DNA of 57,405 bases, taken from contig JARLGV010000001.1 in assembly GCA_031292555.1 (NCBI GenBank), forward strand, positions 1-57,405, in the 5' to 3' direction. The DNA is from Fimbriimonas sp. Its GTDB lineage: Bacteria > Armatimonadota > Fimbriimonadia > Fimbriimonadales > Fimbriimonadaceae. The position numbers were made by a program, and so were the translations under genes. Below, one piece after another: positions 39,668 through 48,437 of this stretch. Positions within the stretch are counted from its first letter, which is position 1, and every line of letters begins with the position of its first letter. The notes under the pieces are model-generated. The model did not search any database, was not told the origin of the DNA, and saw only the letters and a program-made list of their open reading frames with translations.

Positions 39668-42667
39668 CTAGGTGATAGTCAGTCCGGTACTTTGCGTCAT
39701 CCCGCCGGCAGTAGCGGCGATCGTTACAACCGTCGTAGAACTGACCGACTTAGTGTCGATCGAAAAGGTAGCCGAACTGCTTCCTGCCGCGATCTTGACA
39801 GTCCTTGGGGCGGTCGCGGAGTTCTTGTTGCTGCTTAGCACGACGACAACCCCGCTGGGCCCGGCAGGACCGTTCAACGCAACGATGCCGGTCGCTTTCG
39901 AACCACCCTTAACCGTGGTTGGACTAACAGTAACCGACCTAAGGCTCGGCGGCATCAGCGTAATTTGTGTCGACTTGGTCGTTATGCCGTCCGAAGCAGT
40001 CACCGTGACCTTCATCCTCGCATCCACCGGCTTTGAGGTCATCTCGAATGTGGCGTAAGTCTCACCAGAAAGCAAGAACACATCGGCTGGGACAGAAATG
40101 AATGAACTCCCGCCGACCAGCGTGATTGCCGAACCAACGGGGCCGGCCGGAGCAACGATCGCGACCGTGCCCTTTAGGCTCTGACCTCCTAGGACCGATG
40201 CTGCGTTCAGGCTCACCGCCTTGATACTCGGCGTCAGAATCGTCAACTTGGCAACTTTTGACGAGGGACCGACCGATGCCGTAATTGGAATGACGGTCGG
40301 CGTGTACTCCCATGGAGTCCTGACCGTGAAGCTGACTGACTTCTTGCCGGATGGCACTATGATCGTTGATGGAAGCGTGAGTTGAAATCCGGATTCGAGG
40401 CCAACGGTTACTCCCCCCGAAGGGGCAGCCTTGCTCAATGTCACCGTACAGGTAGTAGATTTTCCTTGCTGAACCCATGCCGGATTGAGCATGAATCCCG
40501 TCAAGACGTCCGAAGTCAAAGGCGGAAGCTGAGCGACCTCAAGACCGGCATCAGGCTTGGAATAGACAACCGACTTGCCATCCTGCGACAGAGCGAAGTA
40601 CCCATATGCCCCGACACTGTAATAGCCAAGCACTTTGAATTGGGCCGCATCGAATACTTGGATCTCGCCTGGTCCGCCCGAACTCGATACAAAGAGCATT
40701 TTGCCGTCAGGCGCGTACGTCACCGAGAAGGCAGCATTGGTGCCGCTTTGCAGTGGTAGGTTGGAGAGCCGCTGCTTGCTCGCGACGCTCCATACTTCCA
40801 GTCCAGCGGAAGATAATGAACCTGCCGAATATGCTTCCTGCCCGGCAACGGCTATCTGCTTACCGTCAGGTGAAAAGGCAATGCCATGAACGTAGCTCTC
40901 CCCGGTTGCCAAATTGGCTAAGAGGTTTCCGCTGGCGACGTCCCAGAGCTCCACTACTCCGTGCGGCAATTGACCAACCACGTCCGGCTCAAGCGAACCG
41001 CCGTCCGCAAGGCTTCTCCCGTCGGCCGAGAATTGAATGCCGGCAAAGCCGACACTAATGGCCGGCGCGAGCTTCTTGACCTGGACGCCAGTTGCCGGAT
41101 CCCAGATCTCGATAGTGCATGCTCCACTCGCGTCGAACCCCCCAATCGCCAACCGCTTCCCGTCCGGCGAGAAAGCAATCAGTCCTTCCGAAACGACGCC
41201 GGTCTTCAACGTTAGGGCCAAACTGTACGACGGAACATTCCAGAGGTCGATAACGCCGTCCGTTCCGTTCACACCGGCAATGGCAAGCGCGTGCCCGTCA
41301 GGAGAAAACGAATTGGCAAACGACGTGCTGCCGACCGAAGTGGGGAGGGCCGCAGCCAAAGTGCCCGTGTCGGCGTTCCATACGTTGAAGTACTTTTTGA
41401 GAACGCCGGTGGATGTCCCAACCTGGTCGATGCCTCCCCCGGCAACAAGCATCCCGCCCGGCGAGAAGGTCGGCGATCCGCCACTGACCGGTCCCCAAAG
41501 GTAGCCCTTTCCTGTAATGTTCGAGGATTGCAGCGATGCGTCCGAAACCCGCCAAATGTCGAAGAACCCAGTCATTGGCTCGTACGACCCATAGGCCCCG
41601 CCATAGTAGCCGTAGTTCGAACCGGCAACCTCAAGGCTCACGCCATCGGGCGAGAATTCAACCGAATTCACGGTCCAGCCAACCGTTTCCAACGGAATTA
41701 CGCTCGGACCGTTCGTAAGATCCCAGAGCTCTACGGCGCCGGAGCTCAGATAGGAGCCTTCATAGGGCGATTGATTTGCTCCCGCAACGACGAGTCGACG
41801 CCCGTCGGGTGAGAACGCGACCGAAGACACAACGGATTTGATGCCGGAGTTCAGCACGTCAAGGACAGCACCCGACGCGACCGTCCACATCTGGAGCATG
41901 CTTCCGGAAGGGCCGCTACCTCCCCCTGCAAGAGAATTGCCGTCTGGAGAGAATGCCACCGAATTGACCGTCGTTGCCTGACCGACTCCAATGTTTTCGA
42001 ACAAAGAACCGGCCGGAGCATTCCACACCTCCAAGACGCCGATCGACGCACTCGTTCCGCCAACCGCAAGTTTCTTCCCGTCAGGCGAAAAGGCGACCGA
42101 ATCCACGATTGAGGCAGTCGTCGCGAGGGAGACAGAACGTACCTCGGTCGACACGTTCCACTCCTCAGCGACTCCGGTAAGTGAATTGGCGTTCAGGTCG
42201 CCGGCAGCCCCGCCAACGGCCAGTATCAGTCCATTCGATGAGAAAGCAACCGAATTCACCAAGACCGCATTCGATGCCAAGCTTGCGACCAGATGCCCCG
42301 ACCTGTAATTCCAAAGTTCGAGAACGCTTCCGCCGTTATACGACCTCCCACCAATCGCAAGCGTGTGTCCATCGGGTGAGAAGGCAACCGAGTTGACGTT
42401 GGCGACTCCGGTTGGCAGACCTCGAAACGGTAACCGGGTCGAAGCAGAGTAGAGGCAAAGGCCGTTGTCCCCGCCGACCGCCAGAAGGGTCTCATCGGGC
42501 GAGTACGCAACGCTCGAAACGTTTACGATCGGCGAAAACGACCATTGGTTCGGCAACCATGCCTGGGCTTCCGCCAAGTGGGAGCCAATCACTATGCAAA
42601 ACATCGCGAAAGAAGTCGCCAAGGCCCTGAACCTCCGAGCGTTGCCTATCAGGGCATTGTTGTGCAT
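39668..42667 (-). CDS. Secreted WD40-repeat protein with C-terminal Ig-like modules
   Basis: 999 residues. The signal peptide is near residues 14-34 (ALATSFAMFCIVIGSHLAEA). Residues ~45-740 hold a long run of WD40-like blades, each with a variant of 'VNSVAFSPDGKKLAVGG' followed by 'EVWN/ELWD', enough for about two propellers. From ~750 on there are three Ig-like modules of about 85 residues, starting near ISVTLSKAAPSGGVTVGLES, IKAVSLNAASVLGGQSLKG and RSVTVSPTTVKGGSKATG. No enzyme domain is seen. It should be extracellular or surface-attached, perhaps for binding or adhesion. Confidence 0.9.
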   Translation of the reverse strand: MHNNALIGNARRFRALATSFAMFCIVIGSHLAEAQAWLPNQWSFSPIVNVSSVAYSPDETLLAVGGDNGLCLYSASTRLPFRGLPTGVANVNSVAFSPDGHTLAIGGRSYNGGSVLELWNYRSGHLVASLASNAVLVNSVAFSSNGLILAVGGAAGDLNANSLTGVAEEWNVSTEVRSVSLATTASIVDSVAFSPDGKKLAVGGTSASIGVLEVWNAPAGSLFENIGVGQATTVNSVAFSPDGNSLAGGGSGPSGSMLQMWTVASGAVLDVLNSGIKSVVSSVAFSPDGRRLVVAGANQSPYEGSYLSSGAVELWDLTNGPSVIPLETVGWTVNSVEFSPDGVSLEVAGSNYGYYGGAYGSYEPMTGFFDIWRVSDASLQSSNITGKGYLWGPVSGGSPTFSPGGMLVAGGGIDQVGTSTGVLKKYFNVWNADTGTLAAALPTSVGSTSFANSFSPDGHALAIAGVNGTDGVIDLWNVPSYSLALTLKTGVVSEGLIAFSPDGKRLAIGGFDASGACTIEIWDPATGVQVKKLAPAISVGFAGIQFSADGRSLADGGSLEPDVVGQLPHGVVELWDVASGNLLANLATGESYVHGIAFSPDGKQIAVAGQEAYSAGSLSSAGLEVWSVASKQRLSNLPLQSGTNAAFSVTYAPDGKMLFVSSSGGPGEIQVFDAAQFKVLGYYSVGAYGYFALSQDGKSVVYSKPDAGLEVAQLPPLTSDVLTGFMLNPAWVQQGKSTTCTVTLSKAAPSGGVTVGLESGFQLTLPSTIIVPSGKKSVSFTVRTPWEYTPTVIPITASVGPSSKVAKLTILTPSIKAVSLNAASVLGGQSLKGTVAIVAPAGPVGSAITLVGGSSFISVPADVFLLSGETYATFEMTSKPVDARMKVTVTASDGITTKSTQITLMPPSLRSVTVSPTTVKGGSKATGIVALNGPAGPSGVVVVLSSNKNSATAPRTVKIAAGSSSATFSIDTKSVSSTTVVTIAATAGGMTQSTGLTIT

Positions 42668-43874: not shown

Positions 43875-44423
43875 CTACGGTGTGTCGATGAGCGAGGTCC
43901 GGCGATGCTCGAGGAGTTCGATCATCGCTCCAAAGCGGGCGCGGCCGTCGAAATAGGCGTACTGCCCTTCCCCCATGTCGCCTCTCTGGATCATTGGAAC
44001 CGATTGCATCTCAAGAGCATCCTTGTCCGCCCTCATGTTCTCGGTCCAAAACGCCAGATGGTGGACAGTCTCGCCCCCTTCTCGGAGCCCTTCCGCCCAT
44101 GCCGAGTCGTCCCCGATCGGCTGAATCAACTCCAGTTGGACCCCACCAAGATCGAAGAATGCCAACAATGCTCGGGCGTTACTGGGTGCGCCACGGTAGG
44201 TCATTGCCACTTCGCTTCCTGGCTCGGTCTCGATGATGTTGGGCCTGGGTTGGCCCAGAAGGGCGGAGTAGTGTTCGATAGCGCGTTCGATATCCTGAAC
44301 CGCGATGGCAACTTGGGCGATCTTGTGATTACTCAGGGGCGGCACGGTCACTTCGTTCGTTGAAGCATCCACGATCAAAATTCTACCTACCAGCCCGGTC
44401 GGACGCCGGGCCTCAACATACAT
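43875..44423 (-). CDS. VOC superfamily (glyoxalase-like) protein
   Basis: About 182 residues from an ATG at 44423 (MYVEARRPTG). The frame is open back to 44564, so the start is uncertain; a GTG about 20 codons further in is another option. The core is a vicinal oxygen chelate domain: KIAQVAIAVQDIERAIEHYSALLG, then VQLELIQPIGDDSAW, VHHLAFWTENM and FGAMIELLEH. Likely metal ligands are the His of VHHLAFW and the Glu of IELLEH. The pattern resembles methylmalonyl-CoA epimerase-like VOC proteins. It is divergently placed to the AraC-thioredoxin fusion gene. Confidence 0.82.
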   Translation of the reverse strand: MYVEARRPTGLVGRILIVDASTNEVTVPPLSNHKIAQVAIAVQDIERAIEHYSALLGQPRPNIIETEPGSEVAMTYRGAPSNARALLAFFDLGGVQLELIQPIGDDSAWAEGLREGGETVHHLAFWTENMRADKDALEMQSVPMIQRGDMGEGQYAYFDGRARFGAMIELLEHRRTSLIDTP

Positions 44424-44603
44424 CGCACGGTGGTCGATGCTGCAAAGATCCTGGGCGGGCTCTCGTTCCTCGTTGCCCCGGCGACCCACTATTACTTCGG
44501 CTCGAAAGCCGAGTAACTGTGCTGGATGCCGGTAAGCCATACCGAACCTTTGGCTACCCGTCAAAATGGCCAGTTCTCCGACAGCTGATTCGACAAGGCA
44601 CCA

Positions 44604-44626: not shown

Positions 44627-44666
44627 GATCAAAAGTCGGCACCAGAAACCGCCGTATCATAACCGC

Positions 44667-45851
44667 GTGATGGAGACGAGCCGGACGGAAGGGGAGTACT
44701 TAGCAGCGATTTGCAGCGTGCTAGCGTATGTCCAGATTCATCTGGACGACGACTTGACCCCCCATCGGTTGGCTCAAGTGGCATCGTTTTCGGAGCACCA
44801 CTTCCATCGGATCTTTCGGGCGGTCGTGGGCGAATCGGTCATGGATCATGTCCGTCGGCTACGCCTTGAACGAGCTGCTTTCCATCTCAAGACAAGCCGG
44901 AGATCGGTGGCAAGCATCGCGCTCGACGCCGGCTATGGTGCACAGGAAGCGTTTACCCGCACGTTTCAGGCCTACTTTGGCGTGTCACCTCGAACCTACC
45001 GGCAAGCGCACGCCGCTCATCAACTTCCATCGTCCTCGGGAGTGCACTTCTCTCCCAAGGGCTTTACGCCGTTACGACGATCGGTCGATCCAGAAGCTAT
45101 GGACACAGACCTTCTGTGTGCGGCCCATCGAAACTGGCCGGCTGAATTCGAGCACCGATGGGAGGAGTTCCTGAGCTTCGTCACCGGATTCGCCACTCTC
45201 GTTTACCCACCCCGTATGAACGGAACGCATGACCCAGAAATGGAGGAACGTATGACTGATTCACTCTCCGATGCCGACAAGGAGATCGACGCACTCGAAA
45301 ACGAAGTCGAACTCGCGAAGCAGCGTCTCGTCGATGCCCGAAAGCGCCGGCCGAAGGAGCCCATCCAAGACTATGTCTTCACGGACTTCGACGGAAAGCA
45401 GGTTTGCCTCTCCGATCTGTTCGGCGACAAGGACGACCTGATTCTGGTTCACAACATGGGCACCGGTTGTAGCCATTGCACGATGTGGGCAGACGGCTTC
45501 ACGGGCCTCCTGCCTCATCTGCAAGACCGCGCCGCGTTCGTGGTGTGCTCGCCGGACAAGCCGGAAGTCCAAAAGCGGTTCGCCACCAAGCGGAACTGGA
45601 ACTTCCGGATGGTCTCCGGGCACGACAACTCGTTCATTCGAGACATGGGTTTCTGGGCAGATGCCGGCCCCTATCCCGGACCATGGCCGGGCGTATCGAC
45701 ATTCCATCGCGACCGTGACGGCAGTATCCATCGCGTCGCCAAGACTCACTTCAGCCCCAGCGACGACTTTTGCCCCGTATGGGCATTCCTCGATCTGCTC
45801 CCCGAGGGACAGAACGGCTGGGAGCCCAAATACAGCTATACCCAGGATTGA
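44667..45851 (+). CDS. AraC-type regulator fused to a thioredoxin-like (DUF899-related) domain
   Basis: 394 residues. Residues ~10-118 are an AraC/XylS DNA-binding domain (LTPHRLAQVASFSEHHFHRIF and RRSVASIALDAGYGAQEAFTRTFQAYFGVSPRTYR). A linker follows, and residues ~196-394 form a thioredoxin-like domain of the DUF899 type. The latter has DYVFTDFDGKQVCLSDLFG, a redox-like CxxC in GTGCSHCTMW and DDFCPVWAFLDLLP. A GGAGG five bases before the in-frame ATG at 45252 could also give the thioredoxin domain as a separate product. The next gene starts 2 bases after the stop. This arrangement suggests a redox-sensing activator of its own cluster, which is inference. Confidence 0.85.
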   Translation: MMETSRTEGEYLAAICSVLAYVQIHLDDDLTPHRLAQVASFSEHHFHRIFRAVVGESVMDHVRRLRLERAAFHLKTSRRSVASIALDAGYGAQEAFTRTFQAYFGVSPRTYRQAHAAHQLPSSSGVHFSPKGFTPLRRSVDPEAMDTDLLCAAHRNWPAEFEHRWEEFLSFVTGFATLVYPPRMNGTHDPEMEERMTDSLSDADKEIDALENEVELAKQRLVDARKRRPKEPIQDYVFTDFDGKQVCLSDLFGDKDDLILVHNMGTGCSHCTMWADGFTGLLPHLQDRAAFVVCSPDKPEVQKRFATKRNWNFRMVSGHDNSFIRDMGFWADAGPYPGPWPGVSTFHRDRDGSIHRVAKTHFSPSDDFCPVWAFLDLLPEGQNGWEPKYSYTQD

Positions 45852-45853
45852 CC

Positions 45854-46072
45854 ATGAACCACGCGCTTTACCTTCGTCCCATGGCGCCGATTCGGATCGG
45901 ACCAATGCTCATGCTCCTGATCGCTTTCTGGCTTGCCAGCGCGGTCAGCTTCGCACCTACGTTTGGCCGGGCGGCCACCGTTCCGCGCCACTCCGACTAC
46001 TGCCACTGTCCGCATTGTTCGGGCGGTCCCACATGCTGCTGCCGCTTCGCCGGCAAATGTCCTACCCCCTAG
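45854..46072 (+). CDS. Small Cys-rich exported protein
   Basis: 72 residues from the ATG at 45854, 2 bases after the preceding stop. A hydrophobic signal (IGPMLMLLIAFWLASAVSFA) leads to a short mature part with CHCPHCSGGPTCCCRFAGKC, seven Cys in 20 residues plus His. This could bind metal or form a disulphide knot outside the cytoplasm. The frame is open upstream to 45770, but that part lies within the fusion gene. I recognise no family. It sits between two thioredoxin-like genes, suggesting a common redox or metal role. Confidence 0.62.
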   Translation: MNHALYLRPMAPIRIGPMLMLLIAFWLASAVSFAPTFGRAATVPRHSDYCHCPHCSGGPTCCCRFAGKCPTP

Positions 46073-46120
46073 CACTGGCGTCCCACCTGTGCCCAAAAAC
46101 TGACAGAAAGGAGAAATAAA

Positions 46121-46834
46121 ATGACATCGATTGCACCTCTAAACCACACCGTCGTCTCTCAAGCCGAGTGGCTTGAAGCAGGAAGAGCACTCCTCCAGAA
46201 GGAGAAGGAGTTCACGAGAGCCCGCGATGCGATGAGCGCCGCTCGCAGAGAACTACCCTGGATGAAGGTGGAAACCGACTACGTCTTCGAGGGTCCCGAT
46301 GGACCTGTCAGCCTTTCCGACCTCTTCGACGGACGTAGCCACTTGATCGTTTACCACTACATGTACGGACCGGGCTGGGCAGACGGATGTCCAGGTTGTT
46401 CTTTCGTTTGCGACCACGTCGATTCAGCCCGGCAGCACTTCGAGCACCACGACGTCGCCTACGTTGTGGTCTCCCGCGCACCCGTCGCCGATTTTCAGGC
46501 ATTCAAAGAGCGGATGGGATGGACATTCCGCTGGGTGTCTTCGAGCCAGAACAGCTTCAACTACGACTTCGGAGTGTCCTATCGACGTGAGGACCTGGAC
46601 GCCGGCCCAGTCCTGCACAATTTCGTTCCTCAGAAGCTGAACAGTGAGGAGCAGCCAGGACTCAGCGTGTTTTTGAAGGATGCGGACGGCAGCATCTACC
46701 GCACCTACTCAACCTACGAGCGCGGGCTAGATCTCTTGATTGGAGCCTACAACTACCTCGACCTGATGCCCCTCGGTCGGAACGAAGAGGGCCCCATGAA
46801 CTGGGTGCAATTTCACGACAAGTACGAAGACTAA
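46121..46834 (+). CDS. DUF899 family thioredoxin-like protein
   Basis: 237 residues from an ATG with an AAAGGAG site. The opening VSQAEWLEAGRALLQKEKEFTRARDAMSAARRELPWMKVE is the DUF899 family's N-terminal helix. The fold core follows: YVFEGPDGPVSLSDLFDGRSHLIVYHYMYGPGW, then the CxxC-type DGCPGCSFVCDHVD and FKERMGWTFRWVSS. The tail DLMPLGRNEEGP is also typical. Members are predicted thiol-dependent oxidoreductases with no settled substrate. It lies 48 bases after the Cys-rich gene and is related to the C-terminal half of the AraC fusion. Confidence 0.9.
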   Translation: MTSIAPLNHTVVSQAEWLEAGRALLQKEKEFTRARDAMSAARRELPWMKVETDYVFEGPDGPVSLSDLFDGRSHLIVYHYMYGPGWADGCPGCSFVCDHVDSARQHFEHHDVAYVVVSRAPVADFQAFKERMGWTFRWVSSSQNSFNYDFGVSYRREDLDAGPVLHNFVPQKLNSEEQPGLSVFLKDADGSIYRTYSTYERGLDLLIGAYNYLDLMPLGRNEEGPMNWVQFHDKYED

Positions 46835-47024: not shown

Positions 47025-48437
47025 ATGTTGCTTGTTTCCCTCCTAGCGTTTGCCGCATTGCAATCAAACCAACCCGATGCGGTTACTGAATTGTTCGTTC
47101 GCACGACGCCGTCAACTCGGATCGAGTCGTTAGCCTCCGCCGTAGCGCCCTTCGGACGCATCGATTGTCGGGCCCGTATGAGCCACGACTATCTGGTCCA
47201 GCTGAAGCCCTGCGTCGATCGAGAATCCGCCAAACGCGCACTGGACCGTGTTCCAGGAGCGAAAGTCCTTTCGCCTGGCGAAGAGCCTGTCGACTTTAGA
47301 TCGCTGCCCTCGATGGAGCGCAAACTCCGCCACCTCAGGCAGGACGGGCAAGAGCCGGATGGCAAAGCCGAATCCGGAGCTGACTACCTTGAGTCGTACT
47401 ACTGGTTCTGCCGAAAGAGGGCAAAAGCGGACGGTACGATGGACTGGCGATACCTCGGAGACGGTCGGGTGCATGCCATGGCGATGCCTGCGATGCACAT
47501 CCGACAGCCGGCAGATGGGTCTCCGCTCCCGCTTGCCTCTCAGTCATGGCGCTTTGTCGGACCAACCAACCTCACGGCCATCGATCCGAATGCGGCATAT
47601 TTCGGTCTCGGCGCCGCTAATGGAAGAGTCAACACGGTCGCCTTTGACCCCAAGGTGAGTTCCACGATCTACGCGGGAGCGGCCCATGGCGGACTGTGGA
47701 AGAGCGTCGATTCGGGAACGACGTGGACTTGGCTCTCCCATCTGAACGTACCGTTCCTGGTAACCCACTTCTCAGTCAATGCGTCTGCCGCACCACAGAT
47801 CGTCGCAACTTGCGGAAGCAGTGTGGTGAACGCAGGCATCCACATCGATCCGTTCATGATCACGGAGATGGCCCTAAACCCGTCTTCCGTCCAGGGGGGC
47901 GCTACATCGGCCGGATCCGTGACATTGAATGCAAAACCGGGCGACAAACTCGGTGCGATCACGGTTGCTTTGAGTTCAGACAATCCGGCGGTTACCGTTC
48001 CTGCAACGGTTTCGGTCACGCCGCACACATCAACGGCGGCGTTCTTGGCTTCGTCGAGTGTCGTTAGCACCCAGGCGACCGCAACCCTGACCGCCACGCT
48101 AGGGTCGAGTTCCAAGTCCACGCAGCTTACGGTCACTGCAGCGGGATTGGCGAATTTCACGATCACGCCGTCAACGGTAAAAGTGTCGTCGGGAAGTCCG
48201 GTGACCGGGACCGTCACCCTAGGTTCGCCGGCGCCCGCAGGCGGAGCGCTGATCGTCTTGTCGAGTTCGCTGCCGCCCTTGGCAACGGTCCCCCTTTCCG
48301 TGACGATTCCCCAAGGCCAAACGACCGCCAACTTCGCGGTTAGTTATGCGTCCACGACAACCATCCAAGCTAACGTGACGATAACGGCAGGATACGCGGG
48401 CCAGCAACTCACCGCTACCCTCACCCTCAAGCCCTAG
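47025..48437 (+). CDS. Secreted protein with truncated BNR propeller and Ig-like modules
   Basis: 470 residues with a short signal peptide (MLLVSLLAFAALQSNQ). The N-terminal domain (~20-170) is unrecognised. A single clear BNR-type blade follows: TVAFDPKVSSTIYAGAAHGGLWKSVDSGTTWTWLSH. The propeller then breaks off around residue 260, and two or three Ig-like modules finish the protein (MALNPSSVQGGATSAGSVTL and ITPSTVKVSSGSPVTGTVTL). A sortilin-type propeller needs six or more blades, so this looks like a shortened version of a larger surface protein. An inverted repeat CAAGCCC/GGGCTTG spans the stop codon (48428-48445). Confidence 0.75.
   Translation: MLLVSLLAFAALQSNQPDAVTELFVRTTPSTRIESLASAVAPFGRIDCRARMSHDYLVQLKPCVDRESAKRALDRVPGAKVLSPGEEPVDFRSLPSMERKLRHLRQDGQEPDGKAESGADYLESYYWFCRKRAKADGTMDWRYLGDGRVHAMAMPAMHIRQPADGSPLPLASQSWRFVGPTNLTAIDPNAAYFGLGAANGRVNTVAFDPKVSSTIYAGAAHGGLWKSVDSGTTWTWLSHLNVPFLVTHFSVNASAAPQIVATCGSSVVNAGIHIDPFMITEMALNPSSVQGGATSAGSVTLNAKPGDKLGAITVALSSDNPAVTVPATVSVTPHTSTAAFLASSSVVSTQATATLTATLGSSSKSTQLTVTAAGLANFTITPSTVKVSSGSPVTGTVTLGSPAPAGGALIVLSSSLPPLATVPLSVTIPQGQTTANFAVSYASTTTIQANVTITAGYAGQQLTATLTLKP

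Follow-up and report, generated by a model that had tools for sequence, protein, structure and literature searches.

The question raised by this locus of Fimbriimonas sp., a soil bacterium, is whether an AraC-type DNA-binding domain and a cysteine-bearing DUF899 domain form one protein and, if so, what the second domain does there. The window, i.e., the whole stretch of DNA that was analysed, comprises 57,405 nucleotides.

Domain composition of the fusion gene

The frame 44667-45851 (forward strand; 394 residues when counted from GTG 44667) is free of stops between the two domains. ATG 44670 is a more likely start than GTG 44667, because it is aligned with the ATG of the Fimbriimonas ginsengisoli homologue. 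PF12833 (HTH_18) is matched at residues 35-113 with 72.7 bits (cut-off 33.6, E 3e-20) and PF05988 (DUF899) at residues 203-384 with 76.6 bits (gathering score 27, E 2.7e-21), i.e., both domains that the initial annotation had proposed are above cut-off in one frame. AhpC-TSA is also matched (42.2 bits, cut-off 26, E 9e-11). By its HTH_18 score, which exceeds the curated cut-off, the protein belongs to the AraC/XylS family and is predicted to bind DNA. RclR is also among the NCBIfam matches of this part, and its helices in the AlphaFold2 model match AdpA, SoxS and AraC-type structures. No GyrI domain was matched in the fusion by the domain search; DUF899 is found there instead.

The same fusion is present in the finished single-contig genome of F. 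ginsengisoli (G008; 63% identity over 4-392), and a third, more distant one (45% identity) in another genus of the same family (G036 hereafter). The fusion is one real protein with a rare domain architecture: it occurs in only 3 of the 291 genomes of the phylum that were searched, about 50 of which have the DUF899 domain unfused.

Table 1. Position of the features of the locus in the window.
Feature	Coordinates	Strand	Remarks
Divergent VOC/glyoxalase-like gene	43875..44564	-	longest frame; start uncertain, possibly 44372
AraC-DUF899 fusion gene	44670..45851	+	single ORF; homologous fusions 63% (F. ginsengisoli) and 45% (G036) identical
HTH_18 / AraC-type DNA-binding domain	44769..45005	+	aa 35-113; nearest in NCBIfam are SoxS, Rob and MarA
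Linker	45006..45251	+	aa 114-195, 82 residues, partly helical
Conserved linker module with LCAxHR	45114..45212	+	aa 150-182
GGAGG, ribosome-binding-site-like	45242..45246	+	5 nt upstream of the in-frame ATG 45252
Internal ATG	45252..45254	+	aa 196; the F. ginsengisoli stand-alone paralogue starts at the aligned position
DUF899-like domain, predicted peroxiredoxin fold	45273..45818	+	aa 203-384
CSHC motif (C268, C271)	45468..45479	+	aa 268-271
Third conserved Cys, C369	45771..45773	+	found in 98% of stand-alone copies
Cys-rich peptide	45854..46072	+	72 aa, N-terminal hydrophobic segment, CxCxHCxGGxxCCC...CP
Full-length DUF899 protein (CPGC)	46121..46834	+	237 aa; 308 bits, E 4e-92

Predicted fold and cysteines of the fused domain

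The AlphaFold2 model of the fusion (59-sequence alignment) has a mean pLDDT of 84, with high values in the DUF899 part; the arrangement of the two domains is not fixed by the model, because its pTM is only 0.54. In this model the DUF899 part (residues 229-382) resembles AhpE (VIA-align Z 16.8, rmsd 2.8, 146 residues), and the C-terminal part also matches PrxQ/BCP and Tpx (Z about 15-17). BcpB and PrxQ in the PDB are matched by a profile made from sequences of the short DUF899 clade. The fused domain is predicted from these matches to have a peroxiredoxin fold (AhpE/PrxQ) bearing a thioredoxin-style CxxC. The initial annotation had described an AraC fusion to a CSHC-containing thioredoxin-like domain; the single frame and the CSHC are as described, while the predicted fold is that of peroxiredoxins and not plain thioredoxin.

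In the profile alignment C271 falls on the peroxidatic Cys of PrxQ/BCP and C268 on the Thr of TxxC; the Thr of the peroxidatic motif PxxxTxxC is thus replaced by Cys (GTGCSHC against STPGC). In the same alignment a gap stands opposite the «er» of erSTF in PrxQ, where the catalytic Arg precedes the S/T-F strand. Peroxidase chemistry is doubtful, since this canonical Arg is unmatched; the conserved R309 and R356 might substitute for it. The three fused copies retain 32 of the 39 positions with a conservation of 85% or more among 44 stand-alone copies, including C268, C271, C369, W274, D276, R309 and W311. The CxxC is also kept in the two full-length DUF899 proteins compared, where C369 is absent. 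The retained cysteines and the peroxiredoxin-type fold predicted by the model are compatible with thiol or oxidant sensing; it must be noticed that retention of the active site would be expected equally from a bifunctional enzyme.

Proposed mechanism

The best-supported mechanism is that of an AraC one-component regulator whose redox-active effector, of peroxiredoxin fold, would control its own small thiol operon; the chances of this proposal are put at about even. Redox sensing, autoregulation and the substrate are what we infer for it. The regulator has its HTH at the N-terminus, and its C-terminal effector would be a DUF899 protein of the short type with a peroxiredoxin fold. A thiol, peroxide or electrophile signal would most likely change the redox state of the CxxC (C268/C271, with C369 as a possible partner). 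The two domains would then be positioned differently, and the HTH would become more or less active at the promoter of its own gene, from which the fusion, the exported Cys-rich peptide and the second DUF899 protein would be expressed. Free enzyme may in addition be supplied by a shorter product from an internal start. That all the parts hold jointly, i.e., a single-chain bacterial peroxidase-relay regulator, a free enzyme from the internal start and an exported Cys-rich partner peptide, is improbable, at something over one chance in five.

Possible internal start and the linker

The main rival is a bifunctional or two-product gene. In the latter form the HTH regulates and the DUF899 domain is an ordinary, non-sensing enzyme, translated both at the end of the regulator and on its own from ATG 45252. 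Such a gene would have originated when an AraC gene lost the stop that separated it from a DUF899 gene downstream. Besides the kept active site, several observations speak for it: (i) the GGAGG of the window and its counterpart in the F. ginsengisoli fusion, AGGAG, are well spaced (5-6 nt over both genomes) though the encoded peptide differs (EMEER vs. PQEII); (ii) only 40 of 1665 internal in-frame ATGs of other long frames (2.4%) have such a site; (iii) a stand-alone paralogue of F. ginsengisoli (199 residues, about 70% identical to the domain of the window), which lies within the fused clade and has GGAG before its start, begins at the aligned Met; (iv) the full-length starts of both fusions are without a Shine-Dalgarno-like site. 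On the contrary, the GGAGG of G036 is 14 nt away, i.e., too far for a typical site. It is plausible, from these sequence features, that the internal ATG yields a second, shorter product or that the motif before it is left over from the unfused gene.

The linker weighs against this rival. That it is open is by itself weak evidence, a random stretch staying open with a probability of 0.13-0.24 per genome. Between the window and F. ginsengisoli, identity is just 28% over residues 114-149 and 52% over residues 150-182, where the mismatches by codon position are 0.33/0.24/0.52; this pattern indicates that residues 150-182 are translated and constrained at the protein level. LCAxHR is common to all three fusions, with C151 and H154 invariant, and the linker of G036 is shorter. 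No convincing unfused AraC protein with the same linker tail was found in the 291 genomes of the phylum. Since the module is conserved as protein and found only in fusions, the long form is translated and selected. The two-product gene is rated unlikely, at somewhat under one chance in three.

Neighbouring genes and upstream DNA

The ATG of the Cys-rich peptide begins 2 bases past the TGA of the fusion, as first annotated, and its tail reads CHCPHCSGGPTCCCRFAGKCP; the N-terminus is hydrophobic. The related CPGC-containing DUF899 gene does follow. No solved structure was found by sequence for this full-length protein, which is about 32% identical to the fused DUF899 domain. The idea that the regulator senses through the same fold that it regulates is thus acceptable at the level of the fold and not beyond. 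In F. ginsengisoli a homologue of the peptide (41% identical) stands at the same place, with a GTG start that overlaps the stop TGA of the fusion, and is accompanied by a full-length DUF899 gene, also at the same place (80% identical), i.e., a three-gene block is conserved. As architecture, peptide and second DUF899 are conserved as a block, it is fair to describe the fusion as a regulator that carries a divergent relative of another product of its operon.

The peptide is also relevant to another reading, in which the DUF899 domain is an ordinary sensor of a non-redox ligand or a metal, bound through the CxxC, C369 or C151/H154 of the linker. The last two residues are invariant in the three fusions, and the Cys/His-rich, predicted exported product of the next gene could bind metal. 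However, the cysteines and their surroundings are as in the stand-alone family, whose members are presumably enzymes, and no metal-handling gene was recognised beside the fusion, either in the window or in F. ginsengisoli. A sensor of this kind is quite improbable, clearly more so than the two-product gene.

The divergent VOC gene of the initial annotation is borne out in the window by domain search. At the F. ginsengisoli locus a gene for an NmrA-like oxidoreductase is divergent instead, and the VOC gene is excluded from the unit because this other gene takes its place in the relative. Both kinds may be presumed to be often linked to the handling of electrophiles or quinones. A comparison of the DNA upstream of the two fusions, in the window and in F. 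ginsengisoli, revealed no common operator, the best common 16-mer being at the level of shuffled sequences. A similar 16-mer (14/16) occurs upstream of the F. ginsengisoli stand-alone copy (L062 2984 (-)) and at 44645-44660 of the window; the pair GAATCAGCCGTATCAT / GAAACCGCCGTATCAT is possibly a -10-like element.

Weak relatives of the Cys-rich peptide, sharing the motif C-x-C-x-x-C-x-G-G-x-x-CCC (E 2e-7 to 4e-4), are found across the phylum (L094, L096-L106). They look exported and have about 120-160 aa; the four tested have no Pfam match. At about ten of these loci (L094, L096-L102, L104, L106) a type IV pilin-like gene is adjacent (DUF1559 in the two tested), and at L102 and L106 an AhpC-TSA redoxin adjoins the locus of the Cys-rich protein. 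The gene order suggests an undescribed cluster of Cys-rich exported protein, pilin and redoxin.

Elsewhere in the window, the frame 39668-42667 (-) encodes a secreted-looking protein of 999 residues with many WD40-type repeats (domain search), then repeated Ig-like stretches (read by eye), which resemble by eye those of the gene 47025-48437.

Distribution and history

The published chromosome of F. ginsengisoli Gsoil 348T has 5,231,762 bp (PMC4072686). The initial annotation had feared a sequencing error or assembly join at about 45240 and a lack of the fusion in relatives; an artefact joining two genes there has practically no chance of being true, as the same fusion and gene order occur in this independent single-contig genome, the fusion recurs in another genus (G036) and the linker is constrained in frame.

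No fusion was found among 398 sampled genomes of Pseudomonadota, and no plasmid record covered 80% of the query. A tree built from 50 DUF899 domains unites the fused copies, three in number, and one stand-alone copy of F. ginsengisoli in a clade (support 98/96), the stand-alone copy branching within it. This topology fits either one fusion with later loss of the HTH or two fusions, and the HTH tree does not separate the two histories. No remnant of an HTH was detected upstream of that stand-alone copy. Around the stand-alone copies examined in relatives, no pre-fusion state, i.e., an unfused AraC gene beside DUF899, was found at a distance of up to 1.5 kb. The neighbours of stand-alone DUF899 genes, inspected by eye, are mixed and include no constant partner.

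At one alphaproteobacterial locus (L087 1480-2504 (-)) a gene of ArsR-type HTH overlaps the start of a short-clade DUF899 gene, a hint that a regulator came to lie beside a short-clade DUF899 enzyme more than once.

Comparison with known systems

Rob and STM3175 have an N-terminal HTH_18 and a C-terminal effector domain. The fusion has the same HTH subfamily and the same order, with the DNA-binding domain first and the effector last; it differs in the effector, which is GyrI-like in these proteins and DUF899, of predicted peroxiredoxin fold, in the fusion. An AraC paralogue in the same genome (contig C135) is, as read from its sequence, of the usual GyrI-like type.

RclR is a Cys-based redox regulator of the AraC family, whose sensor domain is N-terminal and of another kind. 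An AraC HTH with a cysteine switch is the logic proposed for the fusion, where, unlike in RclR, a whole enzyme domain of putative peroxiredoxin fold is C-terminal. In yeast, peroxidase-relay sensing is carried out by Orp1/Tsa1 with Yap1. Here also a protein of thiol-peroxidase fold would relay the redox state to a transcription factor; the fusion is on the contrary one polypeptide, bacterial, with a putative peroxidase activity.

With respect to stand-alone DUF899 proteins (PF05988), the fused domain is a divergent member above the Pfam cut-off, to which a DNA-binding domain is added; C369 is present in the short clade and absent from the two full-length proteins compared. The literature search returned no description of a comparable fusion, either of AraC or of peroxiredoxin.

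There is almost no literature on DUF899, and fusion to a DNA-binding domain ties this family to regulation. One of the hosts, F. ginsengisoli, is cultured and strictly aerobic, so that the idea can be tested. If it is true that the fold senses redox in cis, the fusion would be a compact bacterial counterpart of the yeast peroxidase-relay sensors.
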